A DNA stretch of 64,000 nucleotides from Rhizobium oryzihabitans (GTDB taxonomy: Bacteria; Pseudomonadota; Alphaproteobacteria; Rhizobiales; Rhizobiaceae). Below the pieces are notes generated by a model, which was given only the letters and a program-made list of their open reading frames with translations, ran no database searches and was not told where the DNA came from. Position 1 is the stretch's first letter, and each line of letters opens with the position of its first letter. The position numbers and the translations under genes are program-made. The stretch is taken from NCBI RefSeq assembly GCF_010669145.1, contig NZ_CP048632.1, positions 2,180,001 through 2,244,000 on the forward strand. The letters are read 5' to 3'. Shown piece after piece: positions 42,024-64,000 of this stretch.

Positions 42024-42039
42024 TGTTTCACGTGAATCC
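42024..42039. other. parS-like ParB binding site (1 of 5)
   Basis: tgtttcacgtgaatcc matches 14 of 16 positions of the consensus TGTTTCACGTGAAACA. The right arm contains gaatc, a GANTC site. In the gap between trpF and the DUF45 gene, about 14 kb left of the proposed origin. Confidence 0.8.
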
Positions 42040-42063
42040 AGATGGCGATCCACGCCTCCACTT

Positions 42064-42831
42064 TCAATCGAAATCGATGGCGTGGAGTTTGGAGCCATGG
42101 CGTTTCAGCCATTCCTTGGCTTCGTCAGTATGCGGGCAGAGCTTTTCACACAGGGCCCAGAATTTCGGGCCGTGGTTCATTTCGCTCAGATGCGCAACCT
42201 CGTGGGCGGCGAGATAATCGATGACCTTCTCCGGCGCCATGACGATGCGCCATGAGAAGCTCAGATTTCCATCATGGGAACAGGAGCCCCAGCGGCTGCG
42301 GGTGTCCTTCATGCTGATGGACCGCACAGGTCGGCCGGCGGCACGCGCATGGAACGCAACCAGCTTCTCCAGATCAGCCTTCGCTTCCTTTTTCAGAAAG
42401 GTCGCCACCCGTCTGCGCAGATGCTCGGGCGCGCCGCTGACTTTCAGAACCGCCGTGCCGTCAGCGTCCTGGGATATATGGGTCAGGCCCCGCAGGCTGC
42501 CGGTGTGGTCTATGCGGTGGGATATGCCGCGAATATCGATGGTCGCGCCATGACCCAAACCGTCGTCAGGGCCGATTTTCAAAAGCTTGCCTTCCAGCCA
42601 GCCCTGATGCCTTTCAAGGAAATCATCAACCTGGCGGTGGTGCAGGCCCTGCGGGATCGTCAGCTTCAGTGCCCGACCGCCGGGTTCGATGCGCAAGGTA
42701 ATGCGCGTGGCCCGCGGGTTTTCCCTCACCGTGATGGGGACGTGACGCCCGGCCACCTCGACGGTGCGCTGGCTCGGTGCGGTCTTTTTTGGCGCCGGCG
42801 ACTTCACGGATTTTCTGAGGAGCGAAAACAT
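42064..42831 (-). CDS. M48/DUF45 (YgjP-like) metallopeptidase
   Basis: 255-aa cytoplasmic protein of the YgjP/SprT-like DUF45 family. The zinc-metalloprotease motif is in DYLAAHEVAHLSEMNHG (HExxH), with the third ligand region KFWALCEKLCPH. RSRWGSCSHDGNLSFSWRI is the family hallmark. ATG at 42831; no signal peptide. Physiological substrate unknown. Codirectional with trpF downstream but separated by the parS-bearing gap. Confidence 0.88.
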   Translation of the reverse strand: MFSLLRKSVKSPAPKKTAPSQRTVEVAGRHVPITVRENPRATRITLRIEPGGRALKLTIPQGLHHRQVDDFLERHQGWLEGKLLKIGPDDGLGHGATIDIRGISHRIDHTGSLRGLTHISQDADGTAVLKVSGAPEHLRRRVATFLKKEAKADLEKLVAFHARAAGRPVRSISMKDTRSRWGSCSHDGNLSFSWRIVMAPEKVIDYLAAHEVAHLSEMNHGPKFWALCEKLCPHTDEAKEWLKRHGSKLHAIDFD

Positions 42832-42899
42832 GAATGGTTCATAGCCGATTCGACACTGGCTTGGCCACGCAAATGCGCGGCATCGCCTGTCTTCCAGCG

Positions 42900-44131
42900 C
42901 TAGACAGTCTGGTGTTTGCCGATGAATTCCACCATACGCGGCACGATTTCCTTGCGGAACCGCGACCCGTTGAAAACGCCGTAATGGCCGACATCGGGCT
43001 GCATATAATGGGCGCGCTTTTCATCCGGGATGTTCCGGCACAGATCATGGGCCGCCTTGGTCTGGCCGACACCGGAGATATCGTCATTCTCACCTTCCAC
43101 GGTAAACAAGGCGACATTTCGAATGGCAGCGGGATCAACCGCCCTGCCCCTGTGCTGCATGTTTCCCTTCGGCAGCGCATGGTCGATAAAAACGGTTTCG
43201 ACAGTCTGCAGATAGAATTCCGCCGTCAAATCCATGACGGCCAGATATTCATCGTAAAAATCGCGATGCTTCTCGGCGGAATCGCCATCGTTCTTGACGA
43301 GGTTGAGGTAGAAATCCTTATGCGCCGTCATGTGCTTGTCGAGGTTCATGGACATGAAACCGGACAATTGCAGGAAGCCGGGATAAACGGACCTGCCGAA
43401 AGCAGGCTGCGGCCACGGTACCTGCATGACGACGTTATCGCGGAACCACTCGATGGGCTTGGCCTTGGCCAGGCCGTTGACGGCTGTGGGATTGATGCGC
43501 GTATCGATCGGCCCCCCATCAGCGTCATGGATGCCGGTGCGAAACCATCCCCATCGGCTTCCATCAGGGAAACGGCCGCGAGCACCGGCACCGAGGGTTG
43601 ACAGACGGCAACCACATGCGCACCCGGTCCAATCTCACGCAGCATATCGATGACATAGCTGATGTAATCGTCGAGATCGAAGGTGCCTTCTGTCACCGGC
43701 ACCATGCGGGCATCGATCCAGTCAGTGATGTATATATCCGCCGATGGCAGCAGCGCCTCCACCGTTCCCCGCAGCAATGTGGCGTAGTGGCCGGACATCG
43801 GCGCAACCAGCAGCACCTTCGGATCCGCTTTGCGGGTCGTATCAAATTCTTTTTTGAAATGAACGAGGTTGCAGAAGGGACGCGACCAGACGATTTCTTC
43901 GGTGACGGCAACCGTCTCGCCATCAACGGTCGTGGTGCCAAGGCCGAACTCCGGCTTGACGTAACGGCGTGTCAGACGCTCGAACACCTCAAAGCCCGCA
44001 TCGAGGCTTCGCCCGAAGGCGGTGCTGGAAAGCGGGTTCAATGGATTGCTGCAGGCCTGGCGCATCATATCGGCACCCGCGCGCAGGGGCACCATCGCCG
44101 CATGGTTCATTTCATAAAGGTGGTAGAACAC
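42900..44131 (-). pseudogene. phaZ: phaZ, intracellular polyhydroxybutyrate depolymerase, frameshifted
   Basis: PHB depolymerase of the intracellular type. Start is GTG at 44131 (MFYHLYEMNHAAM) after a ggagg ribosome site. The first frame runs through YWDWIDARMVP-like and VVAVCQPSVPVLAAV, where Cys replaces the usual lipase Ser as in Ralstonia PhaZ. It then shifts at MTLMGG. The rest, in another frame, continues from IDTRINP-like sequence to VPWPQPAFGRSVYPGFLQL and the C-terminus at 42900. Adding one C to the six-C run at 43512-43517 restores a protein of about 410 aa. Homopolymer sequencing error is a strong possibility. Confidence 0.88.
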
Positions 44132-44202
44132 TGATTACGCCTCCCTCGCGGATCACGCTCTTTTTTTGACCATAGCAGCTTTTCGCAACTGCACAAAATC
44201 GA

Positions 44203-44230
44203 AGGCGCCGGTGGTTTCCCGCCGGCGCCT
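44203..44230 (-). terminator. Hairpin after the FAH-family gene
   Basis: Arms aggcgccgg/ccggcgcct. In the leftward transcript it lies 28 bases past the stop and is followed by tcgatttt, a weak T-tract. Confidence 0.6.
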
Positions 44231-44257
44231 CAATTTCAGTTGAACGCTTGTCGATAA

Positions 44258-45100
44258 TCAGATGTCGGCGACGAAGGTCTGCTTCTGGGAACCGAGGCCT
44301 TCAATGCCGAGTTCCACGACATCACCGGTCTTGAGATAACGCGGCGGCTTCTGGCCCATGCCGACGCCGGGAGGCGTGCCGGTGGAGATGACGTCACCGG
44401 GATGCAGCGACATGAACTGGCTGAGATAGGAAACGACATGGGCAACGCCGTAAACCATGGTCTTGCTGGAACCGTCCTGCATTGTCTGGCCATTCACCTT
44501 CAGCCACATGCCGAGGTTCTGCGGATCGGTGATTTCGTCCTTCGTGACGAGCCAGGGGCCGATCGGGCCGAAGGTGTCGCAGGACTTGCCCTTGGTCCAC
44601 TGCCCGGCGCGCTCCGTCTGGAAGGCGCGTTCGGAAACGTCGTGCGAGACGCAATAACCGGCGACGTAGTCGAGAGCATCGGCTTCCGAAACATATTTTG
44701 CCGTCTTGCCGATGACGACACCAAGCTCGACTTCCCAGTCGGTCTTTTCGGAGCCGCGCGGAATGACAACATCATCATTCGGACCGACGATCGCCGAGGT
44801 CGCCTTCATGAAAATGACCGGTTCCGGCGGTACGGTTGCACCCGTTTCAGCAGCATGGTCGGAGAAGTTGAGGCCGATGCAGATGAATTTCCCCGTTCCG
44901 GCAACGCAGGCGCCGATGCGCTCTTCGTTGAGGACCGGAAGAGTGCCAAGATCGATGGCAGCAATCTTCTTGAGGCCCTCTGGAGAGATGGCATCGCCGC
45001 CGATATCTTTCACATGGGCGGACAGATCGCGGACTTTTCCTTCCGCGTCGAGGATCGCAGGCTTTTCCTGGCCGGGTTGGCCAACGCGCATCAATTTCAT
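44258..45100 (-). CDS. Fumarylacetoacetate hydrolase family protein
   Basis: 280-aa member of the FAH family (ureidoglycolate lyase, acylpyruvase or 2-hydroxyhepta-2,4-diene-dioate isomerase type). CIGLNFSDHAAETG opens the catalytic domain, and DWEVELGVVIGK with GYCVSHDVSERAFQ provides the Glu/Asp metal ligands. GDVISTGTPPGVGMGQKPPRYL is the C-terminal signature. ATG at 45100 with gggagaga upstream. The exact substrate cannot be decided from sequence. Divergent from the nitroreductase gene. Confidence 0.9.
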   Translation of the reverse strand: MKLMRVGQPGQEKPAILDAEGKVRDLSAHVKDIGGDAISPEGLKKIAAIDLGTLPVLNEERIGACVAGTGKFICIGLNFSDHAAETGATVPPEPVIFMKATSAIVGPNDDVVIPRGSEKTDWEVELGVVIGKTAKYVSEADALDYVAGYCVSHDVSERAFQTERAGQWTKGKSCDTFGPIGPWLVTKDEITDPQNLGMWLKVNGQTMQDGSSKTMVYGVAHVVSYLSQFMSLHPGDVISTGTPPGVGMGQKPPRYLKTGDVVELGIEGLGSQKQTFVADI

Positions 45101-45228
45101 GGAACTCTCTCCCAGTTGTCTGACAAGGTGATGCATATATGAACGATGCATTCATACTTGTCACCCCTTGACTGCTCCGACTTTCGAAAAATACCTTTTC
45201 CCTCCCGGCAATCAAAAGGACATGGCCC

Positions 45229-45831
45229 GTGACGAACAGTAATTCCCGGCAATCAGAATATCCCGTCGATCCCCTTTTCCTCGATCGCTGGTCTCCCCGC
45301 GCCTTCGATGGCAATGCCATGCCGCAAGAGCATCTGCTGACCATTCTCGATGCGGCGCATTGGGCGCCCTCGGCATCCAATCATCAGCCATGGCGATTTG
45401 TCTATGCACACAAGGATAGCGAGGACTGGCCGCTCTTCGTGGAACTTCTGATGGAGGGGAACCAGCGCTGGGCAAAAAATGCCTCCGTGCTGCTCTTCGT
45501 CATTTCCCGCGACCACAATATTTCGCGAGAAGGCGAGAAAAAACCTTCAGCGACCCATTCCTTCGATGCCGGTGCGGCATGGTTTTCGCTCGCCATGCAG
45601 GCCCATCTGCTCGGTTACCACGCCCATGGCATGGCCGGCATATTGAAAGACCAGATCGTGGAAAAGCTTGATGTTCCAGAAGGCTATAAAGTGGAGGCGG
45701 CGGTTGCCATCGGCACATTGACCGACAAGACCGTCCTTCCCGATGATCTGGCGGAACGGGAAGTGCCGAGCAAGCGCCTTCCCCTTTCGGACGTCGCTTT
45801 CAAGGGGCGTTTCACCGGCAAGGCCGATTGA
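45229..45831 (+). CDS. Nitroreductase family protein
   Basis: 200-aa FMN-dependent nitroreductase-fold oxidoreductase. Flavin-binding start DRWSPRAFDGNAMPQEHLL, then AAHWAPSASNHQPWRFVYA, and later HAHGMAGILKDQI and VAIGTLTDK match the family. The start is GTG at 45229, preceded by aaaagga; an ATG seven bases upstream is in another frame and stops at once. It ends in a bidirectional terminator facing gyrB. Confidence 0.88.
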   Translation: MTNSNSRQSEYPVDPLFLDRWSPRAFDGNAMPQEHLLTILDAAHWAPSASNHQPWRFVYAHKDSEDWPLFVELLMEGNQRWAKNASVLLFVISRDHNISREGEKKPSATHSFDAGAAWFSLAMQAHLLGYHAHGMAGILKDQIVEKLDVPEGYKVEAAVAIGTLTDKTVLPDDLAEREVPSKRLPLSDVAFKGRFTGKAD

Positions 45832-45851
45832 TATCCGAGCGTCAATATCAA

Positions 45852-45889
45852 CAAAAAGGCCCGGCGGAAAACAACCGCCGGGCCTTTTG
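45852..45889. terminator. Bidirectional terminator between nitroreductase and gyrB
   Basis: Stem aaaaggcccggcgg/ccgccgggcctttt with an A/T flank on both sides; serves both convergent genes. Confidence 0.92.
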
Positions 45890-45898
45890 TTAAAGTTT

Positions 45899-45914
45899 CG
45901 TTTCACGTGAATCG
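45899..45914. other. parS-like ParB binding site (2 of 5)
   Basis: cgtttcacgtgaatcg, 13 of 16 to the consensus with the 13-base core gtttcacgtgaa intact. Contains gaatc (GANTC). Located 23 bases past the gyrB stop. A weaker echo, gttacgtgagacg, follows at 45914-45926. Confidence 0.72.
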
Positions 45915-45936
45915 TTACGTGAGACGCCCCACAGAA

Positions 45937-48465
<2,529 letters not shown>

Positions 48466-48528
48466 CTACACCCAATCCCAAAGGCCGCATGCTTCCGGAT
48501 GCTGCATAAAGCAGGGGATAGAGGGGTT

Positions 48529-48894
48529 TCAATCGCAAGAACGGCTTTTTTGCAGCACCGCTGACAGTTCCTCTATCATACTCGGCGGCAGCTTGCGAAT
48601 ATCCCGCGCCAGACGATTGGCGAAAGCCGTATATTGTGGTGGCAGACCGATGGTGTCGATCACCACTTTCGGGTCGGACGAGCCGGCGAGAAAGAACAAT
48701 TCCTCCGCCTCGTCCCAGATAATATTGAAATATCCGGCAATGCGCTGAAGGAGATCAAAGCTCGGCTTGCCACGCTTGCCGTGCTCCAGCGCCGAGAGAT
48801 AGGCCGGCGACACGCCGATGGCGGCGGCCATTTCCTTCTGCGTCACGCCCTTGCGTTCGCGAAGCTGTCGCACCGCCTCGGCAAAGGGCGTCAT
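48529..48894 (-). CDS. XRE-family transcriptional regulator
   Basis: 121-aa helix-turn-helix protein. HTH at about residues 8-62: VRQLRERKGVTQKEMAAAI, GVSPAYLSALEHGKRGKPS. The rest (DEAEELFFLAGSSDPKVVID) is a short helical tail typical of a widespread alphaproteobacterial type. Its ATG overlaps the stop of the Smr gene by 4 bases. Target genes unknown; gyrB lies 156 bases downstream. Confidence 0.9.
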   Translation of the reverse strand: MTPFAEAVRQLRERKGVTQKEMAAAIGVSPAYLSALEHGKRGKPSFDLLQRIAGYFNIIWDEAEELFFLAGSSDPKVVIDTIGLPPQYTAFANRLARDIRKLPPSMIEELSAVLQKSRSCD

Positions 48895-49460
48895 GATTTG
48901 TCACCCTTCCGGCGTGCCAGCCGCACATAGAGCGCGCCGTCGCCGCCATGATTGGCAGATGCATCCTCGTAGGAGGAAATCAAATGGCGATATTCCGGTT
49001 TGGAGAACCACATGGGCACCGCTCTTTTCAACGCGCCGTCGCTGCCTATCGAGCGCCCCTTGCCGGTGATGACGAGCACATGCCTCAGACCCCGTTCATG
49101 CGCGCGCAGCAGAAAGTCGAGCAGAACCGCATGGGCCTCGCTCTGGAACATGCCGTGCAGATCGATCCGCCCTTCCAGCGGCAGCCTGCCGCGGGTGAGC
49201 TTGCGCTTGACCGGTTTTTCCAGCGGCTGATGAATTCGGGGTTTCTTGTCCGGCGAAGCGGGCGGCACCTCCGCCGGCTCTGCGAGCATGCGCGGAAAGA
49301 GACCCTTGCCGGTTTGCGGAACCACCGGCTCGGCCGGGGTTTCCTCTACATCGTCGAAAGCCAGCAAATCCTCCAGCCTGCCTGGGATCGGCCGCGCTGT
49401 CCTTGCGACCTTACCCCACAGGATGCGTTCTTCCTTGCCAAGCTTTCGACTGCCCTTCAT
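48891..49460 (-). CDS. Smr/MutS2-family domain protein
   Basis: 189 aa. The N-terminal half is variable and basic; the C-terminal Smr domain (about 95-185) has DLHGMFQSEAHAVLLDFLL, HVLVITGKG and AVPMWFSKPEY. Smr domains are nucleases acting on branched DNA or on RNA at stalled ribosomes; which applies here is unknown. Overlaps mltA and the XRE gene by 4 bases each, so translation of the cluster is coupled. Confidence 0.88.
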   Translation of the reverse strand: MKGSRKLGKEERILWGKVARTARPIPGRLEDLLAFDDVEETPAEPVVPQTGKGLFPRMLAEPAEVPPASPDKKPRIHQPLEKPVKRKLTRGRLPLEGRIDLHGMFQSEAHAVLLDFLLRAHERGLRHVLVITGKGRSIGSDGALKRAVPMWFSKPEYRHLISSYEDASANHGGDGALYVRLARRKGDKS

Positions 49461-50569
49461 CGCCGATACCTTTCCGCAGCAGCATGCGGCAACAGTATAT
49501 AAAAATCGGCGTCGTTGCGCACCGTACCGGCAAGTTCGCCGGCTTCGAAACCGGAGCCGGTGAAAATATCGCCGCGCGCCGGGCCGACGATGGCCGACCC
49601 CGTATCGAGCGCCAGCATCAGCCGGGCGAATGGTTTTCCATCATCCAGATGGGTCAATGACGGCGCATGGATGAAAAAGGGCAAACCGAATGTGTGAATG
49701 AGCCTATCGACCGCAAGCGCCCGGCCAGCGATCAGCGGCACCTTGGCGGCGGCAATCGGTCCCATATCGTCTTTGGCAACATCCGCTTCCCGGAAAAAAA
49801 TATAGGAGCGGTTATGCCAGAGCACGCCATCCACGTCGTCGGGATGATCGGCGAGCCATTTTCGGATCGTCTGCATCGAGACGGTTTTTGGATCGAGTTC
49901 GCCGCGATCCAGAAGCAAGCGGCCGATTGGCGAAAACGGATGCCCGGCTTTTGCCGCATAGGTAATGCGTTTCACCTCACCATTGCGAAACAGGAGACGG
50001 GCAGCACCCTGAACGTGGACGAAAAACAGATCGACCTTCGATTTCGCCCAGGCGATCTCAAGACCCCTGCCCTCCAGATATCCTTCATCCATGGCGCGAC
50101 GGTCGGGAAAATAGGAAATCCCGTCTTCGCCTTCTTTGCCAAAAGCATAGGTCGGATCGAAACCGGTGGGACGATTATCGTCGCCGATATCCACCAGTTC
50201 CGGCGGCCTGCGATAGATCGGATAACGCCAGATCTCGTCCGGTGTGGAAGACACTTCCAGTTCCGGTTCGTAAAAGGCGGTAACAAAACCGCTCTTTCCC
50301 TGAGCAGGAGAAATCTTGAAGGCTACGCAATTGGTTTCGAAAAAGTGGCGCGCCTGTTCGGGGCTATCCGCTTCCAAGCCTTCGGCGGCTTCCAGAAGTG
50401 AAACCAGTTCCCCAGCGGTGACGCCGAGCGCGCCGGTCCTGTAGGGTTTCGCATTCCTCAGATGCGACAGGATCGTTCCCATAGCTGCAAAAAGCTCGCT
50501 GGGATCGTCCTCCCGCCACCCTGGCAGATCGCGGAAAGACACTTCGTCGATTGAAAAAGGCGTGCTCAT
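49457..50569 (-). CDS. mltA: MltA-like murein transglycosylase
   Basis: 370-aa lytic transglycosylase A family protein. The MltA domain covers about residues 60-270 (GKSGFVTAFYEPELEVS, RGLEIAWAKSKVDLFFVHVQGAARL), followed by the C-terminal 3D domain with VPLIAGRALAVDRLIHTFG and LMLALDTGSAIVGPARGDIF. No signal peptide is visible at the N-terminus (MSTPFSIDEVSFRDLPGW), although MltA works in the periplasm. The ATG overlaps the Tim44-like gene stop by 4 bases, so the start cannot be moved far upstream without leaving the frame. Confidence 0.9.
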   Translation of the reverse strand: MSTPFSIDEVSFRDLPGWREDDPSELFAAMGTILSHLRNAKPYRTGALGVTAGELVSLLEAAEGLEADSPEQARHFFETNCVAFKISPAQGKSGFVTAFYEPELEVSSTPDEIWRYPIYRRPPELVDIGDDNRPTGFDPTYAFGKEGEDGISYFPDRRAMDEGYLEGRGLEIAWAKSKVDLFFVHVQGAARLLFRNGEVKRITYAAKAGHPFSPIGRLLLDRGELDPKTVSMQTIRKWLADHPDDVDGVLWHNRSYIFFREADVAKDDMGPIAAAKVPLIAGRALAVDRLIHTFGLPFFIHAPSLTHLDDGKPFARLMLALDTGSAIVGPARGDIFTGSGFEAGELAGTVRNDADFYILLPHAAAERYRR

Positions 50570-51264
50570 TGCTCGGATTCGGTAGCGATCAGCTTCCAGT
50601 TCGGATCGCGCGAACGAATGTCACGCGAGAAGGTCCAGATGTCATCCACTTCCGCAACCGCGTCCGGATCGCCATCCACCAGCTTGCCGTCCTTGTCATA
50701 CGTGGCAGAAATCAGCTGGCTGACCAGCCTCAGCGTGATCTGCACTTCCGAGTCTCGAACGGCCGCCTGGGTGATATCGGCCTTTTCGATACCCACGAAG
50801 GTGGACTTAACAACCTCACCACGACTTTCCCGCTCGGAAATGGCCGCATCGAAGCCGTCAAAAACGTCCTTCGACAGAAGGTTCTTGAGTGTCTTGCGGT
50901 CGCCGTCGGCAAAACCCATGACAATCATTTCATAGGCCATGCGTGCGCCGTTGAGGAATTCCTTCGGGCGGAACGTCGGGTCCTTGGTCATCACGTCCCT
51001 GAGGGAAGCATTTAATGCGGAGTCCACGGGCGCAAGCGCATCCGCCTCGGCAAAGCGGTTTTCATCCTCCGCCTCGCCGCGCTTCGGCAGGGTCACGACC
51101 TTGTTATCGTCCGTGACGGGACCTTTCGCGACGTCGCGCGGGCTATAGGGATCGAATGGCGGCTTCTCATTGCCCGTTCGGCGGCCGAGAACGCTACGCA
51201 GCTGAAAGAAGATCAGCACCGCCGCAACGAGAAAAAACAATGTGATAAAGTCGCTAAAGCCCAT
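50566..51264 (-). CDS. Tim44-like domain protein
   Basis: 232 aa. An N-terminal membrane helix (MGFSDFITLFFLVAAVLIFFQLRS) is followed by a polar linker and a C-terminal Tim44-like domain (about 95-230), including DPTFRPKEFLNGARMAYEMIV and VDDIWTFSRDIRSRDPNWKL. This is the bacterial TimA/Tim44 homologue seen in alphaproteobacteria, related to the mitochondrial import motor subunit; its bacterial role is unclear. First gene of the leftward cluster with mltA, smr and XRE, divergent from fxsA. Confidence 0.9.
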   Translation of the reverse strand: MGFSDFITLFFLVAAVLIFFQLRSVLGRRTGNEKPPFDPYSPRDVAKGPVTDDNKVVTLPKRGEAEDENRFAEADALAPVDSALNASLRDVMTKDPTFRPKEFLNGARMAYEMIVMGFADGDRKTLKNLLSKDVFDGFDAAISERESRGEVVKSTFVGIEKADITQAAVRDSEVQITLRLVSQLISATYDKDGKLVDGDPDAVAEVDDIWTFSRDIRSRDPNWKLIATESEQ

Positions 51265-51405
51265 CTTTTACCAAAACCGCCATTTAAAATCGAAAACCAC
51301 ACCATCATATAGTCTGCATCTTACCATCATTCAAATGTGCAGATTCAATCATCGGTGTTCTCGCGAACCGGCAATCTGCCAGAGATGCACACGCAAGGCT
51401 AGAAG

Positions 51406-51954
51406 ATGCGTTTTTCCTTTCTCCCCATCGTCATCCTGATGATGCCCATCCTCGAAATTGCCGGCTTCATCATTGTCGGCAAAGCGATCGGTTTGTGGCT
51501 GACATTGGCGCTCGTCCTGTTCACGTCGTTTCTCGGGCTCCTGATCCTGCGCCTTGGCGGCATCGGCATGGTGAGAAACCTTCAGGCAGCCGGACGCACG
51601 GGTGCCCAACCGGCGGATGAGCTGGTCAATGGCGCCATGCGGGTTGTCGCCGGAATCCTGCTTTTCATTCCCGGTTTCATTACCGACATCCTCGGCCTTC
51701 TGCTGTTGTCGAAAACGGTTCGGCGCTTTTTCTGGAAAGCCTTCGGACCACGCGTCGTTGTTGCGGGCTCGTTTCGCCAGTCTGGCAGCCAGTCCGGTCC
51801 GCAGCCCGGTGATTTTTCCGGGTTCCGCAATGATCAAGGAAAAAGCGGGAATTCCAAGGTCGTAGACCTCGACGAGGAAGAGTTTCACCGCGAAGGACCG
51901 AAGGATTCTCCCTGGTCCCGCAAGCCGGATGATCGCGACCTGCCCAAACCCTGA
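51406..51954 (+). CDS. fxsA: FxsA family membrane protein
   Basis: 182-aa inner-membrane protein with three to four hydrophobic segments in residues 1-110 (RFSFLPIVILMMPILEIAGF, LWLTLALVLFTSFLGLLILR, VVAGILLFIPGFITDILGLL). The latter is the FxsA hallmark. The C-terminal tail is polar. In E. coli FxsA relieves T7 exclusion by F; its normal function is unknown. ATG at 51406 after gctagaag. secB follows 102 bases later on the same strand. Confidence 0.9.
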   Translation: MRFSFLPIVILMMPILEIAGFIIVGKAIGLWLTLALVLFTSFLGLLILRLGGIGMVRNLQAAGRTGAQPADELVNGAMRVVAGILLFIPGFITDILGLLLLSKTVRRFFWKAFGPRVVVAGSFRQSGSQSGPQPGDFSGFRNDQGKSGNSKVVDLDEEEFHREGPKDSPWSRKPDDRDLPKP

Positions 51955-52055
51955 AGGCGCGTTGGAACAGACCCAGGGCCGGCTCACGAAGGGTTGTAAG
52001 GCTCGGGTCGAAATGATAGACCGCCTTCCACGAATTCACGCCGCGAGGAAACGTA

Positions 52056-52538
52056 ATGACCGCTGAAAATGGTGCACAGGACGCAGTAAGTCCTTCCCTC
52101 AACATTCTTACCCAGTACATCAAGGATCTTTCCTTCGAAAATCCGGGCGCTCCTCGTTCGCTCCAGGCACGTGAAAATGCGCCGTCGATCAACATCAACG
52201 TCAATGTCAATGCAAACCCGATCTCCGGTTCGGATTTTGACGTTGTTCTGGCGCTGAATGCGGAAGCCAAGGATGGCGACAAGGTTCTGTTTGCGGCCGA
52301 GCTGGTTTATGGCGGCGTGTTCCGCATTGCCGGTTTCCCGCAGGAACATATGCTGCCGGTGCTGTTCATCGAATGCCCGCGCCTTCTGTTTCCCTTCGCA
52401 CGCCAGATCATCGCGGACGTTACCCGCAACGGCGGCTTCCCGCCGCTGATGATCGACCCGATCGATTTTGCGCAGATGTTCGCTCAGCGCGTTGCCGAAG
52501 AACAGGCGAGAGCCAAGGTTCAGGCCGTACCGAACTGA
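52056..52538 (+). CDS. secB: Protein-export chaperone SecB
   Basis: 160-aa tetrameric chaperone that keeps preproteins unfolded for SecA. Family blocks: [41 protein letters not shown], and the C-terminal [26 protein letters not shown] at 52056 following gaggaaacgta. Ends in a hairpin terminator. Confidence 0.97.
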
Positions 52539-52574
52539 GCAGCGCATATCGCGTTTCAGAATTTCTGACAAAAC

Positions 52575-52602
52575 AAAACCCGGGTTCTTTGCCCGGGTTT
52601 TT
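52575..52602. terminator. Bidirectional terminator between secB and dnaQ
   Basis: Stem aaaacccggg/cccgggtttt with loop ttctttg plus T-run; suits secB and, with the A-run, the leftward dnaQ. Confidence 0.92.
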
Positions 52603-52642
52603 CTTTGACCACATTTGCCATTTCAACGTCTCGGCAGGCGCG

Positions 52643-53341
52643 TCAATTCTGGTACCGGTTCCAGATCGCCTTGTCGCCCATGCCGAGAACAAGTTTGCCA
52701 TGAGCCGCGAGCGTCTCCGCGTCCAGTCTCGAGGGCAAGGGGCTTGGCCGTTGCAGTGGCTCAAGCGGTACGTCATCCTCGATGACGATGGTTTCCTGCT
52801 TGGCGGAGGAACCGAAACCGAGCGCCGTCTGGCGCCCGCCGATCATCTCGATGTAGACTTCGGCTAGAAGTTCGGAGTCGAGAAGCGCGCCGTGCTTGGT
52901 GCGGTGGGAATTGTCGATGCCGTAACGCCGGCAAAGCGCATCGAGAGAATTCGGTCCCATCGGGTGCTTGCGGCGGGCGAGCGAAAGCGTATCCGTCACC
53001 AGATCGGGTGCGACAGGTTCAATTCCAAGACGGGCGAATTCCGCATTGATGAAGCCCATATCGAAGGTCGCATTATGCGCCACCCAGCGCGCGCCCTCGA
53101 AGAAATCACGGATCTCGTCGACGACATCGGCGAATTTCGGTTTGTCTTTCAGGAAGTCGTCGGTAATGCCGTGAACCGCAAGCGCATCGGGGTGAACCTT
53201 GCGGTCTTCCGGGCTGATATAGAGATGCAGTGTTTTTCCGGTTGGAAAATGGTTGATCAGCTCAATCCCGCCGATTTCGATAACACGGTCCAGTTTCGAT
53301 TCAAGGCCCGTGGTTTCCGTATCGAAAATGATCTCACGCAT
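52643..53341 (-). CDS. dnaQ: DNA polymerase III epsilon subunit (proofreading exonuclease)
   Basis: 232 aa. Exo I motif IIFDTETTGLE (catalytic Asp/Glu), Exo II HNATFDMGFINAE, Exo III HRTKHGALLDSELLAEVY. C-terminal tail contains the region that binds the alpha subunit. Overlaps coaE by 8 bases; last gene of the leftward run starting at the PEP synthase/PPDK regulator gene. Confidence 0.97.
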   Translation of the reverse strand: MREIIFDTETTGLESKLDRVIEIGGIELINHFPTGKTLHLYISPEDRKVHPDALAVHGITDDFLKDKPKFADVVDEIRDFFEGARWVAHNATFDMGFINAEFARLGIEPVAPDLVTDTLSLARRKHPMGPNSLDALCRRYGIDNSHRTKHGALLDSELLAEVYIEMIGGRQTALGFGSSAKQETIVIEDDVPLEPLQRPSPLPSRLDAETLAAHGKLVLGMGDKAIWNRYQN

Positions 53342-53942
53342 TGTTTTCTCCGTGGCCTGAACCGGCGGCCAATCTTTGCAAGATTCCTCTTACCTGATCC
53401 CGCGCCGCTTCGACACCATTTCCGGTATCGATGACGAAATCGGCGCGTTGGCGCTTTTCAGCATCTGGCATCTGCCGGGCTAGGATCATTTCAAACTTCT
53501 CTTCCGTCATGCCCGGCCGGGATAAAACGCGCTGGCGCTGTATGTCAGGGGCGCAGCTGACGACCACTATTTTATCGACCCTCTCTTCAGCTCCGGTTTC
53601 AAACAGCAGCGGAATATCGAGAAGGGCGAATTGCCGAGCTTCTTCCCTAGCCTTTGCGAGAAAGTCCTCCTGTTTCTGCCGGACAAGCGGGTGAACAATC
53701 GCTTCGAGCTTTCCAAAATTAGCCGGATTCTCCCGCAGAACTTCGCCGAGCTTCTGGCGATCCACCGCACCGGAAGCGGTCGTGCCGGGGAAAGCGGTTT
53801 CGATCAAGCCAACAGCTTCTGCCCGATAAAGCGCGTGCACGACCTCATCGGAATCGAGAACCGGGACGCCTTCTTCAGCAAACAGCTTTGCCGTCGTTGT
53901 TTTTCCCATTCCGATCGAGCCGGTAAGACCGATGACAATCAT
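53334..53942 (-). CDS. coaE: Dephospho-CoA kinase
   Basis: Last step of coenzyme A synthesis. 202 aa. P-loop IGLTGSIGMGKTTTAKLF, DSDEVVHALY, LLDIPLLFETGAE are family blocks. ATG at 53942 overlaps the aroE stop by one base. CoA synthesis is also represented by coaA at 15.2 kb. Confidence 0.96.
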   Translation of the reverse strand: MIVIGLTGSIGMGKTTTAKLFAEEGVPVLDSDEVVHALYRAEAVGLIETAFPGTTASGAVDRQKLGEVLRENPANFGKLEAIVHPLVRQKQEDFLAKAREEARQFALLDIPLLFETGAEERVDKIVVVSCAPDIQRQRVLSRPGMTEEKFEMILARQMPDAEKRQRADFVIDTGNGVEAARDQVRGILQRLAAGSGHGENNA

Positions 53943-54802
53943 CAATGTTTTTCCATATCCGCGATGATGATGGAACGAAGGGTTTCGTCGACCTCCGGCA
54001 TTTGACCGAACCACTTCTTGAAACCGGGTTTCGCCTGATGGAGGAGCATGCCAAGCCCATCCACGGTCGCAATGCCCTGTGCCTGCGCCATCTGCAGGAT
54101 GGGCGTTATCAAGGGCACATAGACGATATCCGTCACGACGGCATTTTCTGCCAGCGGCGAGAAGTCGAGTTCGGGCGCTTCGGTCCCGTCCATGCCGAGC
54201 GATGTGGTGTTCACGAAAAGACCGGCACCTTGCATGACCTCATGAAGCGCGCCCTGCGGATGGGAAAAAACACGGGCGCCAAAACGGTCGGCCAGTTCCT
54301 GGGCACGTTCTTCAGTGCGGTTCAAAATGTGGATTTCGCCAATACCGCGGTCCCGCAAGGACTGAACCACTGCCCGGCTTGCGCCACCGGCGCCAAACAC
54401 CACCGCCCGATCGGCTTTATCCCAGCCCGGGTGTCGCTCATCGAGATTGGAGACAAAACCATAACCATCCGTGTTGGTGGCGTGAAGCCTACCCTCTTCC
54501 ATCCAGATGGTGTTGGCCGCACCCAGTTCTTCAGCCACCTCGTCAGGGCTATCGGCGAGCCTGTAGGCGGCTTCCTTGTGCGGGATGGTGACATTTCCGC
54601 CGACGGCGGATCCAAGCCCCTGCGCCCTTATTGTCGCAATGAAGTTCGGGAAGTCGTCCGGCGTGACCTCCACGGCCTTATAGGAGCCGGAAATGCCGAA
54701 TTTCTTCAGCCAATAGGAGTGGATGATAGGCGACCTGGAATGCTTGATCGGGTAACCGGCAACGAAGGCATTTATGGTTAATGTTTCACGTGAATCAGCC
54801 AT
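53942..54802 (-). CDS. aroE: Shikimate dehydrogenase
   Basis: Reduces 3-dehydroshikimate with NADPH. 286 aa. Substrate site [17 protein letters not shown] with conserved Ser pair, catalytic Lys in [15 protein letters not shown]-binding [19 protein letters not shown] at 54802 gives [13 protein letters not shown]; codons for DSRET contain a parS site, so this N-terminus is shaped by the centromere sequence. Overlaps maf by 8 bases. Confidence 0.96.
54782..54797. other. parS-like ParB binding site (3 of 5)
   Basis: tgtttcacgtgaatca, 15 of 16 to consensus, with gaatc (GANTC) in the right arm. Overlaps both the maf stop and codons 2-7 of aroE. 1.5 kb left of the proposed origin. Confidence 0.88.
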
Positions 54803-55394
54803 CGATGACATCCATGTCGCGCAGTTTCGATAAAAGAGGCAGAAGCGGCAGGCCGAGAATGGTGAAATAATCGCCTTCGATCGAAGTGAATAGCTGGATT
54901 CCCTCGCCCTCGAGCTGATAGGCGCCAACGCTACTCAGAGCTTTTTCTCCCACCCGTTGCAGGTGACGCGAGATAAATTCGACGCTCAGTTTCCGCACGG
55001 AAAGCTCGGCACTGGAAACAGTCTGCCATATTACTTCTTCTCCGCGAACGAGCACGGCAGCGCTGTTCAGGCGATGAACCTTGCCGGACAATGAAAGCAG
55101 GTGCGCCTCGGCTTCCGCCATCGTCTTCGGTTTGTGATAGACGCGGGTGCCGAGCGCCATTGTCTGGTCGCATCCAAGAACGAGCGCTTCAGGATGGAGC
55201 GCGCTGACTGCGAGGGCCTTGGCTCTGGCAAGTTCAAGCGCAACCTCTTCCGGGCGGGCGCCGTTTCTCTCCAGCTCTTCATCGAGCGCACGCTCGTTTA
55301 TATCCGCCGGGATTGCCGAAAATGTCAGGCCCGCATTACGCATCAACATCTGGCGGGATGCGCTGGACGAGGCGAGGATCAATTCTTGTTTCAT
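54795..55394 (-). CDS. maf: Maf-family nucleotide pyrophosphatase
   Basis: 199-aa house-cleaning enzyme hydrolysing non-canonical nucleoside triphosphates. [19 protein letters not shown] is the Maf N-terminal motif; LVLGCDQTM and [14 protein letters not shown] the catalytic and substrate blocks. ATG at 55394 ([10 protein letters not shown]). Gap of 31 bases from the regulator gene upstream. Confidence 0.94.
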
Positions 55395-55425
55395 CGACTG
55401 TCTGCTCCGAATGGTGCGATCCGGA

Positions 55426-56247
55426 TTATCGTGTCCTCGGGCGAAGGGCAAGAATGGCTGCCGCCGTTTCCTCAATGGACCGTCGCGTGACGTCAATCAG
55501 TGGCCAATTGTTGCGCGCGCAGAGCGCCCGCGCATATTTCAGCTCCTCCATGATGGTGGCGCGGTCCGTGTACCGCCCGCTGTCAAATCCCCCGGTAACG
55601 CCAAGCTCCCGGTTTTCACGCACCTGCGATATGCGGTCCGATGTCGCGACGAGACCGACGATCAGTGGCCTTGTGGCCACATAGAGGCTTTCGGGCAGAG
55701 GCACGTTGGGAACGACCGGAATGTTGGCGGTCTTTATTCCCCTGTTGGCGAGATAGATGCTGGTTGGCGTTTTCGACGTACGGCTGATCCCGATAATGAC
55801 GATATCGGCCTCATCATAGGTTTCCGGCATCTGCCCGTCATCATGGTCCATGGCGAAATTAAGCGCCTCGATCCGCGCGAAATAATCCGCATTCAAGACA
55901 TGCTGCGCCCCGACCCGCCGTCTGGAGGGCGCGCCGAGATAGGTCTGGAAAATACCGATGATCGGTTCCAGAACGTTGACGCAGGGCACCCCGATCGCGT
56001 GGCAGCGTAGATCCAGAAACTCGGCCAGCTGCTGGTCAACGATGGTATAAAGGACGATGCCCGGTTCCTTGTCGATAAGGTCCACCACCTGGGCAAGCTG
56101 CTTCTGGTTCCTGATCATCGGATAAACATGTTCCACCGGCATGGAGGCGTGGAACTGCGCAGAAACCGCGCGGCCGGCCGACATCAGAGTCTCGCCCGTT
56201 GAGTCCGAAATCAGATGCAAATGGAAGAAGCTTTTTTTGTTCTCCAC
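55426..56247 (-). CDS. PEP synthase/PPDK regulatory kinase-phosphorylase (DUF299)
   Basis: 273-aa bifunctional regulator that phosphorylates and dephosphorylates pyruvate phosphate dikinase or PEP synthase. P-loop [18 protein letters not shown]-terminal [15 protein letters not shown] is the family signature. Start codon is GTG at 56247, with gggag upstream. First gene left of the origin, transcribed away from it; hemE is transcribed the other way. Confidence 0.95.
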
Positions 56248-56654
56248 GCTGTTTTTCTCCCGCTGTTGATAAACCGGGACAAACTTCCGGATTGTCCTGC
56301 GGGCTGCGCCGCGCCGTGGATAAAGTGGTTTTTTTCCACAATTCGCAAGTGGCTTCTTTGTTGTTCGGCGTGCCTGTGAATAGTCTGAAAATCTGGAACT
56401 TGTTCAAATCTCTCCACAAGCGATCCACAGACAACGCCTTCGGTACTAAAATTCTAAATTATTGAAATAATTTATTGAATCTTCGATTTCTCCATTATTC
56501 TGCGAAAGAACGATTTCCTTGTGCTCGCAGAATGATGAAAAGGCCCGGCTGCGGCATTTCGACTGGAAAGATTTTAATCCTTGCTACTCACCGACTCTAA
56601 GAAATAGAAAATCTTTTAAATCTCTTTGATTTTATTTTTTAGAAGTTGGGTGGC
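56248..56654. other. Predicted chromosomal replication origin (oriC) beside hemE
   Basis: 407-bp gap between divergent genes, strongly AT-rich at about 56440-56510 and 56565-56645. DnaA-box-like 9-mers: ttttccaca at 56332-56340; complement of ttatccacg at 56315-56323; complement of ttatcaaca at 56264-56272; complement of ctattcaca at 56375-56383; cgatccaca at 56421-56429. A perfect 8+8 dyad aaattatt-ga-aataattt lies at 56456-56473. GANTC sites at 56477 and 56593. Alphaproteobacterial origins (Caulobacter, Sinorhizobium) adjoin hemE, and parA and parS sites surround this gap. No full TTAA-N7-TTAA CtrA site was found. Confidence 0.85.
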
Positions 56655-57689
56655 ATGAGCGAGCGTAAGGTTATAAAGGTGTTGAACGGGCAAACGGTCA
56701 CACCTCCGCCCATATGGCTGATGCGGCAGGCAGGGCGTTACCTCCCCGAGTACAGGGAAACGCGAAAGATCGCCGGCAGTTTCCTCGAGCTCTGTTATAA
56801 TCCCGAGCTGGCAACTGAAGTGACCCTTCAGCCCATTCGCCGGTTCGGGCTCGATGCAGCCATTCTGTTTTCCGATATTCTGGTGATACCGGACGCGCTT
56901 CATCGCAACGTCTCTTTCAGCGAAGGAAAGGGTCCGGCCATGGACCCGATCGATGTGAGCGGTATCGAAAAGCTAGATTCAGCGAATGTCCTAAAACATC
57001 TTTCGCCTGTTTTCGAAACCGTTTCCCGCTTGCGCACAGCCTTGCCGGATGAGACGACGCTTCTCGGATTCTGCGGCGCGCCCTGGACGGTTGCCACCTA
57101 TATGATTGCCGGCCACGGCACACCTGATCAGGCACCGGCGCGGCTATTCGGCTACCAGGAGCCGGTCGCGATGGAAAAACTTCTCGCTTTCCTTGCGGAT
57201 ATCTCCGCTGATTATCTGGTGGCGCAGATCGATGCCGGCGCCGACGCGGTTCAGATTTTCGATTCCTGGGCCGGCGTTCTCGGCGAGAAGGAATTCGAGG
57301 AATATGCAGTAAAGCCCGTTGCACGGATTATCGCTTCGGTACGCGCTCGTCGTCCATCCGCAAAGATCATCGCTTTCGCCAAGGGGGCCGGTTATCTTTT
57401 GAAGGATTATCGCCGCAAGACAGGTGCAGACGCCATCGGGCTCGACTGGTCTGTACCTCTCAGCTTCGCTCGCGATCTGCAAAAGGAAGGCTCTGTGCAG
57501 GGCAATCTGGACCCGATGCTGATGGTGGCCGGTGGCAGGGCGTTGCAGGATGGCATCGATGCCGTGCTACAGGCGCTCGGACAGGGTCCGCTGATCTTCA
57601 ATCTCGGCCATGGCATTACCCCGCAGGCCGATCCGGAAAACGTCGCAAGGCTGGTACAGCGGGTACGCGCTTATGGAGCCGGGGCATGA
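56655..57689 (+). CDS. hemE: Uroporphyrinogen decarboxylase
   Basis: Decarboxylates uroporphyrinogen III in haem synthesis. 344 aa. [17 protein letters not shown] is the substrate-binding motif with conserved Arg; [13 protein letters not shown] and the catalytic-Asp region [10 protein letters not shown] also present. ATG at 56655; a TTG three codons earlier is unlikely. First rightward gene after the origin; overlaps hemJ by 4 bases. Confidence 0.97.
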
Positions 57690-58231
57690 GCGACGAGAAA
57701 CAGACCTCTGCCCGTTCCGGAAACAGAGCCGCCCTTCGGGCGGGCGTAGCACTTGGCGTCTTTGCGGCATTTGTCACCCTGCTGTTTTATGCCGATCCCG
57801 CCGATCTCTATCTCTGGATCAAGGCGCTTCACATCATCGCGGTGATCTCCTGGATGGCGGCGATTTTTTACCTGCCGCGGCTGTTCATCTATCACACCGA
57901 TGCGCCTGTTGGCTCACAGCAGTCCGAGACCTTCAAGGTGATGGAACAGCGGCTGATCAAGGTCATCATGAACCCGGCGATGATGATAAGCTGGGTATTG
58001 GGGCTTTATCTCGCCTGGTCGGTTTACGGTTTCTCCGGCGGCTGGCTGCATGCAAAAATCGCGCTGGTGGTGATTTTGACCATCACCCATGTCTATTTCA
58101 CCCGCAGCGCCAAACGTTTCGCACGGGATGAAAATACCAGACCTGCCCGTCACTGGCGGTTGATGAACGAAGTTCCGACGGTGCTGATGATCCTCATAGT
58201 CGTACTTGTGGTTGTGAAACCCTTCGGTTAA
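57686..58231 (+). CDS. hemJ: Protoporphyrinogen oxidase HemJ
   Basis: 181-aa inner-membrane protein with four to five helices; the haem-type protoporphyrinogen IX oxidase of alphaproteobacteria. Conserved His in [24 protein letters not shown], and [27 protein letters not shown] follow. 4-base overlap with hemE couples two haem steps. Confidence 0.94.
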
Positions 58232-58416
58232 GAGGTTCTCACGATAAATTTCGCGGAATTCGTGCTTTCCTCTTGCGGCGGCCGTGTTCAGTCGCTATTT
58301 TCCCCTCACTCATCTTCGTGGCATGTGAATTTTTCAGTCATCTGCGGTATCTCCCTCAGCATCTGATTCGCGAACACGCCCTCCCCCAAATTACATTATC
58401 AAACGGTCTTTCCTTC

Positions 58417-59682
58417 ATGGCTGAAATGAAGCTTCAGGAACTTAAGAGCAAATCGCCTACCGACTTGCTGACTTTTGCTGAATCCCTGGAAGTTGAAAAT
58501 GCGAGCACCATGCGCAAGCAGGAGCTTATGTTCGCAATCCTCAAGGTTCTCGCGAGCCAGGACATTGAAATTATCGGCGAAGGCGTCGTTGAAGTCCTGC
58601 AGGATGGTTTTGGTTTCCTGCGGTCTGCAAACGCGAACTATCTGCCGGGTCCGGACGACATCTATATTTCGCCCTCGCAAATCCGCCGCTTCTCGCTGAA
58701 GACAGGGGATACCGTTGAAGGCCCTATCCGTGGTCCCAAGGAAGGCGAACGTTACTTCGCGCTTCTAAAGGTCAACACGATCAATTTCGACGATCCTGAA
58801 AAGATTCGTCACAAGGTTCACTTCGATAACCTGACGCCGCTCTATCCAAACGAGCGGTTCAAGATGGAACTCGATGTTCCGACATCGAAGGATCTCTCTT
58901 CGCGGGTGATCGATCTCGTCGCGCCGCTCGGCAAGGGCCAGCGCGGATTGATCGTCGCGCCGCCGCGCACCGGTAAAACGGTCCTGCTGCAGAACATCGC
59001 CCATTCGATCACGGCGAACCATCCGGAATGTTATCTGATCGTTCTCCTGATCGACGAACGCCCGGAAGAAGTGACCGACATGCAGCGTTCGGTGAAGGGT
59101 GAGGTCGTCTCCTCCACCTTCGACGAACCGGCTGTGCGCCACGTCCAGGTCGCCGAAATGGTCATTGAAAAGGCGAAGCGCCTTGTGGAACATGGCCGCG
59201 ACGTCGTCATCCTGCTCGATTCCATCACCCGCCTCGGCCGCGCCTATAACACTGTCGTTCCCTCTTCCGGCAAGGTCCTGACCGGTGGTGTGGACGCTAA
59301 CGCTCTGCAGAGGCCAAAGCGCTTCTTTGGTGCCGCTCGTAACATCGAGGAAGGCGGTTCGCTGACGATTATCGCGACTGCATTGATCGATACGGGCAGC
59401 CGTATGGACGAAGTGATCTTCGAAGAATTTAAGGGTACGGGTAACTCGGAAATCGTGCTCGATCGCAAGGTCGCCGACAAGCGCATCTTCCCGGCTCTGG
59501 ACATCCTGAAATCCGGCACGCGTAAGGAAGACCTGCTGGTACCGCGTCAGGATCTGCAGAAGATTTTCGTGCTTCGTCGAATTCTGGCGCCGATGGGAAC
59601 GATGGACGCCATCGAGTTCCTGATCGACAAGCTGAAGCAGACCAAGACGAACTCGGACTTCTTCGAGTCCATGAATACCTGA
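58417..59682 (+). CDS. rho: Transcription termination factor Rho
   Basis: 421-aa RNA helicase hexamer. N-terminal [21 protein letters not shown]-binding cold-shock-like segment with [29 protein letters not shown], Walker [15 protein letters not shown], and the Walker B region [19 protein letters not shown] at 58417. The 185 bases between hemJ and rho hold no gene that I can support; a leader or promoter is expected there. A hairpin follows the stop. Confidence 0.98.
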
Positions 59683-59718
59683 TCCGGAGTTTAGCCGGAT
59701 TCTTCGACCAAGATTTAA

Positions 59719-59748
59719 AGCCGCATTCGTTTATTCGAATGCGGCTTG
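59719..59748 (+). terminator. Hairpin after rho
   Basis: 12-bp stem aagccgcattcg/cgaatgcggctt with loop tttatt; only a weak T-tract (gactgtttt) follows. Confidence 0.7.
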
Positions 59749-59770
59749 ACTGTTTTAGACGAGGTACGTG

Positions 59771-61099
59771 ATGCCAGCTTCCACCGATACGATCTATGCG
59801 CTTTCAAGCGGAGCCCTGCCGGCCGGTGTTGCCATCATCAGGATCAGCGGTCCCTTAGCCTTTGAGGCTCTGTTGAAGTTGACCGGCCGCGAGCTTCCCG
59901 CCCCTCGGCAAGTCGCGTTGGGTTCGATTCGGGATCGAAACAATGAGATTATCGACCAAGCGCTGACGGTCATTTTCCTGGCCCCCAATTCATTCACGGG
60001 CGAGGATTGCGTGGAGATTCACAGTCACGGCAGTCGGGCTGTCATGGCCGCGATTTTCACGGAACTCGACAATCTTCCGGGGCTCAGGCCCGCAGATGCC
60101 GGCGAATTCTCCCGTCGTGCATTTGAGAACGGCAAGATGGACCTTCTCGAAGTTGAAGGACTTGCCGACCTGTTGCAGGCGGAAACCGAAATGCAGAGGC
60201 GGTTGGCTGTCGAGCAAAGCTCAGGCAAACTCTCGGCGCTCTATGATGGCTGGGCAAATCGGTTGACCCGTGCCCGCGCCATGATCGAGGCGGAACTCGA
60301 CTTTGCCGATGAAGAGGACGTTCCGGATTCTGTTGCGTCCCAGGTCTGGGATTCCGTGTCGCAGCTGCGAGATGAGATTGCCGGTCATCTGCGGAGCGGT
60401 GGAAGCAGTGAAATCATTCGTGACGGCTTCAAGGTGGCGTTGGTTGGAGAGCCTAATGCGGGTAAATCCACTCTCCTTAACGCTCTGAGCGGTCGCGACG
60501 TCGCCATTGTGACGGATATCGCCGGCACGACCAGAGACGTGCTGAGTGTGGATATCAATCTGGATGGTTATCTGGTTCGGATATTCGATACAGCCGGTAT
60601 CAGGGATACTCAGGATGTGGTCGAACAGGAGGGTGTCAGGCGCGCCGTTCTGACGGCGGAAACTGCCGATCTCGTATTGGTGTTGCAGGATAATGATTCG
60701 ATTCCGAAACAATTTTCCGCGTCGGTTGAGAATCAAAGACGGTTACGGGTCCGAACTAAAACGGCGGTTTCCCACTCTAATGCAGGCTCGGATTATGATC
60801 TCTCCATCTCGGCCAAGGAGGGTGTTGGCTTGGCCGAGTTGCGTTCGTCGATCAAACGGGAGATCGAAAGGCGGGTCGGCGCTGCGCAGACTTTGGTTCC
60901 GGCGCGCGCGCGTCACAAAAAACGTCTTGAAGACACGCTGAATTATGTTAGTGATGCGCTCCATTCCGAAGCCATGGACCTTGCGATCAGGTCAGAATAT
61001 TTGCGGCTTGCGGCGACCTCGCTCGGACGCATTACGGGCCGCGTGGATGTGGAAGATTTGCTCGGCGTGATCTTCTCGGAATTCTGCATAGGAAAATGA
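59771..61099 (+). CDS. mnmE: tRNA modification GTPase MnmE
   Basis: With MnmG modifies the wobble U34 of several tRNAs. 442 aa. N-terminal folate-binding domain [21 protein letters not shown]1 [31 protein letters not shown]; ends FCIGK with the catalytic Cys. ATG at 59771; a GTG one codon earlier is weaker. The TGA stop is inside a parS site. Confidence 0.97.
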
Positions 61100-61112
61100 T
61101 TCACGTGAAACA
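61097..61112. other. parS-like ParB binding site (4 of 5)
   Basis: tgattcacgtgaaaca, 15 of 16 to consensus; gattc (GANTC) in the left arm. Begins with the mnmE stop codon. 4.5 kb right of the proposed origin. Confidence 0.88.
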
Positions 61113-61160
61113 TTGGCGGCCCACGCGGCAGTGCTGATGGTTAAAATAAGGCGCAGGAAT

Positions 61161-63044: not shown

Positions 63045-63055
63045 CGAGTCGGATT

Positions 63056-63673
63056 ATGAAGATAAACGGCCAGAGTGTTTCACGTGAAACACAAGAGAGG
63101 CTCGAGCATTTTGTCGAGCTTTTCAAGAAGTGGAATAAAACCACAAATCTGGTGGCGCCTTCGACTCTTACTGAGCTTTGGAGCAGGCACGTCGCTGACA
63201 GTGCGCAGATTTTCCAGCTCTCCCCTGCCCCTCAGAAATGGATAGATCTGGGTAGCGGCGGCGGATTTCCCGGCGTCATCACCGCTATTTTTCTTGCGGA
63301 GCTTGGCGAAGGCTGGGTCGATCTCGTTGAAAGCAACAATAAGAAAGCTGCATTTCTGCGAATCGCGCTAAAGGAAACCGGCGCGAGAGGCTCTGTTCAT
63401 CCGGTCAGAATTGAAAAAGCGCCCGAATCCGTTAAAAACTGCGATGCCGTTTCCGCAAGAGCGCTGGCTGAGCTGGATCTGCTTTTCGACTATATTCACC
63501 CTTGGGCGCGGAATAATCCAAATCTCAAGGCCTATTTTAATAAAGGCCGGGATTATGATTCCGAAGTGCAGAAAGCACATGGCCGCTGGCAGTTTGATCT
63601 GATAAAACATCAGAGTGCCATTGAGGCGGATTCTGTTGTTCTTGAAATCAGAAACCTCATTTTGAGGCACTGA
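63056..63673 (+). CDS. rsmG: 16S rRNA (guanine-N7) methyltransferase RsmG
   Basis: Methylates G527 of 16S rRNA. 205 aa. SAM-binding [37 protein letters not shown]. The N-terminus [16 protein letters not shown] includes VSRET, encoded by a perfect parS. It stands between mnmG and parA, as in many bacteria. Confidence 0.96.
63076..63091. other. Perfect parS site (5 of 5)
   Basis: tgtttcacgtgaaaca, 16 of 16 to the bacterial consensus, extended to an 18-bp palindrome by flanking g and c (63075-63092). Lies within codons 7-12 of rsmG, 0.6 kb before parA. Confidence 0.95.
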
Positions 63674-63691: not shown

Positions 63692-64000
63692 CATGAGCTT
63701 TGAAAAAAACCGGATAATCGCAGTTGCAAACCAGAAGGGCGGCGTGGGTAAAACGACGACGGCCATCAATCTGGCTACCGCGTTGGCGGCAATTGGCGAG
63801 CGCGTGCTGATCATCGATCTTGATCCGCAGGGCAATGCGAGCACAGGACTTGGAATTGACCGTAAAGAGCGTAAGCTCTCGTCCTACGATCTTCTGGTAG
63901 GTGATAACACCATTGCCGAAGTTGCGGTCCCGACAGCGGTTCCAAGCCTCGATATCGTTCCTTCCACGATGGATCTGCTTGGCTTCGAGATGCAGGTCGC
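63692..64000 (+). CDS. parA: Chromosome partitioning ATPase ParA (3' end outside window)
   Basis: First 103 codons. Deviant Walker A AVANQKGGVGKTTTAINLAT with signature Lys, then VLIIDLDPQGNASTGLGI. ATG at 63692. Together with the five parS sites it identifies the ParABS system. parB is expected just beyond the window, not seen. Confidence 0.97.

Follow-up and report, generated by a model that had tools for sequence, protein, structure and literature searches.

How a bacterial centromere registers fresh replication is an open question, and a methylation target within a ParB half-site would offer a directly testable switch, and this in bacteria whose cell cycles have been studied in depth. The question is raised by a 64,000-nucleotide stretch of Rhizobium oryzihabitans DNA (contig NZ_CP048632.1, positions 2,180,001 to 2,244,000; hereafter the window), where five sites match parS, the ParB-binding site of the chromosomal ParABS system (TGTTTCACGTGAAACA), and four of them carry GANTC, the target of the methyltransferase CcrM, in one arm. 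Variants of parS are commonly regarded as loose copies of the palindrome. We report that the GANTC-containing form, here referred to as GANTC-parS, is a recurrent and conserved class of sites in Hyphomicrobiales, that it lies near parAB and the probable origin, and that variation in parS is more than noise about the consensus. A literature search found no paper containing the GATTC parS string and, as judged mostly from search listings and passages of papers, none that links GANTC to the arms of chromosomal parS; as far as those sources reach, GANTC-parS is a real, conserved parS variant for which we found no description.

Searching the window with TGTTTCACGTGAAACA and allowing up to three mismatches gave five sites, starting at 42024, 45899, 54782, 61097 and 63076, whereas shuffled versions of the window gave 0.14 on average. 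The core match is beyond chance, and four of the sites have one core mismatch, which in each case changes one arm from GTTTC/GAAAC to GATTC/GAATC. A previous sequence-only reading had claimed that four of the five sites contain GANTC, which the search and the shuffles bear out, and that the only core change is A to T in one arm. The latter is true of the 14-base core and fails at 16 bases, where the site at 42024 deviates also at its last base and that at 45899 also at both end bases. The copy at 63076, correctly described as lacking the change and as lying near parA, is a perfect parS without GANTC and sits inside rsmG. A genome-wide scan with the 16-mer (at most two mismatches) recovered the window sites except 45899, which was recovered by a scan with the 14-base core, and added weaker parS-like sites at genome positions 2251747 and 2284322. 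If single core changes were random, the odds that all four variants take a GANTC-making change (2 of 42 possible) would be approximately 5e-6, a rough figure because the tolerance of ParB differs among core changes.

The four sites are conserved among relatives. The A-to-T change, whose absence from orthologous sites had been set beforehand as a check that could speak against the idea, is present at all four sites in each of the six genomes sampled from the genus, among them that of the window; there the GANTC-parS cores are identical and 26 to 62% of the flanking columns are invariant. That the cores stay the same while the flanks diverge in these six genomes lends indirect support to the assumption that ParB binds the GANTC form. 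Among 239 Pseudomonadota genomes the exact GATTC form (GTTTCACGTGAATC) is present in 26: 14 of 14 Rhizobiaceae (again including the window's genome), 5 of 23 genomes from other families of the order, none of 46 other Alphaproteobacteria and 7 of 156 genomes outside this class. Wider comparison, as the sequence-only reading had suggested, extends the picture, GANTC-parS (GANTCACGTGAAAC) being found in 259 of 297 Rhizobiaceae genomes (90 of 106 genera); when the order as a whole was sampled, 155 of 297 genomes had it. Genome and site counts throughout share ancestry and are not independent.

For a count at the level of half-sites we used loci around mnmG, 80 of them named and 73 representing the order (one per genus, chosen by MnmG). 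For the order loci the first 80 of 112 listed genera were asked for and 77 yielded MnmG, of which G274, G150, G162 and G064, fetched originally for having GATTC, were left out. The named loci were divided by record titles into 33 Hyphomicrobiales and 47 others, with ambiguous ones (e.g. L038, L042, L058 and L077) placed among the others, giving 106 Hyphomicrobiales loci in total. A GAYTC site is present in 32 of the 33 named Hyphomicrobiales loci, in 29 of the 73 order loci and in 1 of the 47 others; outside Rhizobiaceae the order is divided over the use of this arm. Presence and absence switch at least 21 times on a FastTree tree of MnmG from the 153 loci, and GANTC-parS has therefore been gained or lost repeatedly. 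Among the named loci, 74 of 80 have a perfect site at the start of rsmG; of the order loci 48 of 73 do, and 7 of the 73 have the GANTC form there.

Across the 106 Hyphomicrobiales loci, the half-site ACGTGAAAC is paired with GTTTC 181 times, with GATTC 132 times (58 loci) and with GACTC 7 times. All remaining single changes amount to 24 (GTTCC 9, GCTTC 6, ATTTC 5, TTTTC 3 and GTCTC 1), and 16 further partners are close to chance level (15.7). The variation is therefore dominated by a single arm type and does not resemble a range of tolerated changes. Partners in the 47 other alphaproteobacterial loci are GTTTC (102), GTTCC (4) and GATTC (1), plus singletons. With A at position 2 and the N of GANTC varied, 32 GAVTC sites were found in 24 of 297 genomes (31 GACTC and 1 GAATC; 2 in a reversed-pattern control), while varying the following T gave six scattered GATVC sites in 5 of the 297 (control 5). 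The most frequent other single change is T to C at position 4, and few sites have C at the N position as their sole change; comparing GACTC (6) and GATCC (0) with GTCTC (1) and GTTCC (11) gave a Fisher p of 0.0004, where the inputs are tree changes for GACTC and GTTCC and sites for GTCTC and GATCC. Moreover, orthologous sites in two genera (g60 and g338) exchange GATTC and GACTC and are invariant at the 13 remaining core positions; two further swap sets yielded nothing firm, orthology being unsure in g347 (10% of flanking columns invariant) and the rows of g345 being largely gapped. Among the matches listed for Rhizobiaceae, 108 of 150 arms are GATTC and 42 GACTC. N is the one base of GANTC that varies and the other four are kept, as selection on GANTC would predict: the arm behaves as if G-A-N-T-C were a conserved unit, and selection on GANTC itself is the better account of the substitution pattern.

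The reading we favour, to which we give about an even chance, is that GANTC-parS is an asymmetric ParB-binding class of parS with one intact and one methylatable arm, at which ParB loading would differ across replication. The complete lack, in the half-site loci, of sites with GANTC in both arms counts in its favour. The intact arm would be ACGTGAAAC, and the GAYTC arm would serve ParB as a weakened half-site and CcrM as a target; the window's genome has the GANTC sequence together with one RAMA-domain (CcrM-type) enzyme. CcrM is expected to methylate two adenines of the arm, at position 2 and opposite position 4. The major groove of parS is read by the ParB recognition helix (passages of PMC7383237), and the methylated adenines would lie in the groove that this helix contacts. 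According to the portions seen of PMC11514494, GANTCs near the origin remain hemimethylated for a time. Early-replicating GANTC-parS would then be hemimethylated from fork passage until CcrM acts in late S phase, and ParB nucleation could depend on whether a centromere awaits replication or has just undergone it. Full methylation would most likely weaken the arm and replication would partly relieve this, although the opposite sign is possible; perfect parS sites would provide methylation-independent ParB loading. From the sequence data, methylation control of ParB is plausible. In a fuller form, which we hold to be somewhat less than an even bet, the centromere of Hyphomicrobiales would have two classes of site, constitutive perfect parS and asymmetric, CcrM-methylatable parS. 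Replication would switch ParB loading at the latter, and with it spreading or SMC loading, and CcrM would restore the earlier state as S phase ends; methylation would in this way time segregation directly.

Alternatively, the ParB of Hyphomicrobiales may simply accept one GAYTC arm cheaply, with Lys184 raising its affinity and GANTC arising as a by-product; we regard this as possible but rather unlikely. Of 117 Hyphomicrobiales ParB sequences 100 have K or R at position 184, compared with K in 5 of 45 sequences from elsewhere; the 117 include 13 that come from the window's locus or from loci selected by parS content. In the available passages of PMC7383237, lysines K179 and K184 are permissive in ParB and the Noc equivalent of 184 contacts the phosphate at T2. 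An affinity threshold would also fit the absence of sites with GANTC in both arms, of which the half-site loci hold none and about 27 would be expected if the arms were independent. Tolerance is at odds with the behaviour of GACTC, which requires two changes in an arm, the second of them rare alone (GTCTC, 1), and yet is common where GATCC is not. Furthermore, K184 occurs in five other ParBs whose loci lack GATTC sites, and such sites are present in six Hyphomicrobiales loci with a different residue at 184; Lys184 is neither needed nor sufficient for GATTC sites, though it may explain why the order affords a weakened arm. The base-contact residues of ParB are near-invariant in all groups, in loci with and without GANTC-parS alike, and a change of ParB specificity was rejected for this reason, the order-associated lysine being retained within the tolerance explanation.

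Genomes outside the Alphaproteobacteria bear on tolerance from both sides. The seven with GATTC have one such site each, within 5 kb of mnmG in four cases (the fetched stretches of the other three lacked mnmG), and none has a RAMA match, as would be expected if ParB alone accepted the arm. In 55 further non-alphaproteobacterial genomes the dominant variant was instead GTTCC (19 of 33 variant sites among the matches listed), with GATTC seen once.

Several results weigh against methylation control as the reason for GANTC-parS. Of 83 alphaproteobacterial genomes 81 have a RAMA-type CcrM, and the motif does not track the enzyme across lineages in the 239-genome scan: 44 of the 46 Alphaproteobacteria outside the order that lack the exact GATTC form have a RAMA match. 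Within the order, too, CcrM is insufficient, given the 5 of 23 genomes with exact GATTC outside Rhizobiaceae and the 29 of 73 one-per-genus loci with GAYTC; the seven non-alphaproteobacterial genomes without a RAMA match indicate that it is not strictly necessary either. In 18 genomes from two of these non-alphaproteobacterial families and their neighbours, GATTC was the top single-mismatch type (6 of 17), the families having been picked because of earlier GATTC matches. The N of GANTC is T or C nearly always, and there must therefore be a constraint besides CcrM, probably from ParB. Finally, in the parts seen of PMC11514494, CcrM depletion in A. tumefaciens left duplication and partitioning of ori1 without obvious difference and the change of ori1 upon CcrM overexpression was not significant, in a species whose carriage of GANTC-parS is taken from its family (259 of 297 genomes); perfect parS sites could mask an effect of CcrM on ori1.

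Placed among known systems, the sites share with the chromosomal parS of ParABS the core, the multiple copies, the likely oriC/mnmG/rsmG/parAB neighbourhood and the ParB contact residues, and differ in that one arm has a conserved GANTC. A further parallel is the control of origins by SeqA and Dam through hemimethylation in E. coli and Vibrio (PMC2865523). There, too, adenine methylation marks newly replicated origin DNA, but the control acts on initiation via SeqA and not on ParB binding. From the passages available, parS of repABC systems lies near GANTC clusters (3parS of pAMI4, PMC9040568; motif M2 of A. tumefaciens ori2, PMC11514494), which similarly brings partition sites close to CcrM targets with a suspected role in partition; there GANTC is beside RepB-type parS on secondary replicons, and here it is within a ParB arm on the main chromosome. 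Caulobacter GANTCs shielded by MucR offer a likeness in the competition of a DNA-binding protein with CcrM for GANTC, but are MucR targets and not ParB arms (PMC5172544, in part); that work also assayed GANTCs at the parS locus of Caulobacter, and its passages do not place them inside parS. The conserved methylation target suggests that methylation may tune chromosome segregation in rhizobia. Should ParB turn out not to respond to methylation, GAYTC would remain a second type of parS arm, and one that site-prediction tools should count as real.

Since two of the four window sites double as stop codons (of mnmE and maf), parS at gene ends might have changed from TGTTTC to TGATTC for the sake of translation. 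Indeed an open stretch of 100 or more codons ends at 48 of 139 GAYTC sites, compared with 411 of 4240 random TGAs. The other 91 are not such stops, 44 of the 139 have no preceding T, and T precedes GAYTC arms and perfect arms in equal share (95 of 139 and 249 of 362); nor would translation account for the arrays or for GACTC. We consider this explanation highly improbable; stop codons are insufficient as a general cause and perhaps contributed to the fixation of two of the four sites in the window.

The same sites bear on the orientation of the arms. In Rhizobiaceae the GANTC arms are convergent: contigs among the matches listed have the order minus-then-plus in 28 cases and plus-then-minus in none, with 6 mixed and 14 uninformative. 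Relative to hemE, 113 arms in the order face the gene and 69 point away; without the stop-codon sites the numbers are 59 and 61, and a general orientation rule was rejected because the bias vanishes. The GC-skew minimum of 20-kb loci proved too noisy for orientation (67 facing, 40 away, edge-minimum loci left out). The idea that an asymmetric arm tells two sisters apart was likewise abandoned, since arms that converge or are mixed in orientation argue against it.

The window shows strong avoidance of GANTC, with 92 occurrences against about 360 in shuffles. With GANTC-parS masked, this avoidance is relaxed near parAB in named Rhizobiaceae and Rhodobacteraceae, as would be expected if another reader of GANTC, e.g. 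GcrA or an origin sequestration factor, acted here, with parS overlapping its targets and ParB indifferent. GcrA is the usual methylation-sensitive regulator alongside CcrM (PMC11514494, in the portions seen). Such a reader would not explain why GANTC recurs at the identical position of the ParB arm, and in the one-per-genus set of the order the relaxation is not clear, the profile being flat apart from a lower right edge; we regard this explanation as improbable. Within the window, the 4-kb bins of 56001-64000 (hemE to parAB) hold 14 and 18 GANTC and the other bins 2 to 8.

The gene run of the window is hemE, UPF0093, rho, mnmE, mnmG, rsmG and parA, and the parS sites flank this run and the AT-rich gap upstream of hemE (Table 1). 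They cluster near parAB and the likely origin in the window and likewise in relatives. We take the gap to be a likely oriC in view of hemE-linked origins in rhizobia, and the names mnmG, rsmG (by synteny) and parA (from its sequence) are presumed. The parB product was identified through its match to solved ParB structures and has the parS contact residues (R173, G201 and the rest). The maf gene, on the minus strand, terminates at 54797-54795 and thereby overlaps a parS site.

Table 1. Coordinates of parS sites and neighbouring features in the window
Feature	Position	Strand	Remarks
GANTC-parS TGTTTCACGTGAATCC	42024..42039	-	right arm GAATC 42034-42038; between PRA-isomerase and YgjP-like genes
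GANTC-parS CGTTTCACGTGAATCG	45899..45914	-	GAATC 45909-45913; directly downstream of gyrB
GANTC-parS TGTTTCACGTGAATCA	54782..54797	-	GAATC 54792-54796; first minus-strand codon is the maf stop TGA
Candidate oriC	56250..56650	.	AT-rich gap upstream of hemE; TCCACA/TGGATAA-like elements
mnmE (TrmE)	59768..61099	+	stop at 61097-61099
GANTC-parS TGATTCACGTGAAACA	61097..61112	+	GATTC 61098-61102; TGA doubles as mnmE stop
mnmG (gidA)	61161..63044	+	anchor gene for relatives; one match per relative
rsmG (gidB) open reading frame	63056..63673	+	putative; named from synteny
Perfect parS without GANTC	63076..63091	.	within start of rsmG
parA start	63693..64000	+	runs to window end; parB next, beyond the window

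Five loci (L020, L021, L027, L029 and L156) have 5 to 9 GANTC-parS inside approximately 20 kb around mnmG. In L116 and L117 parS sites are centred on CACATG (TGTTTCACATGAAACA) instead of CACGTG; L116 has three such sites, and in L117 two of three sites also have a GATTC arm.

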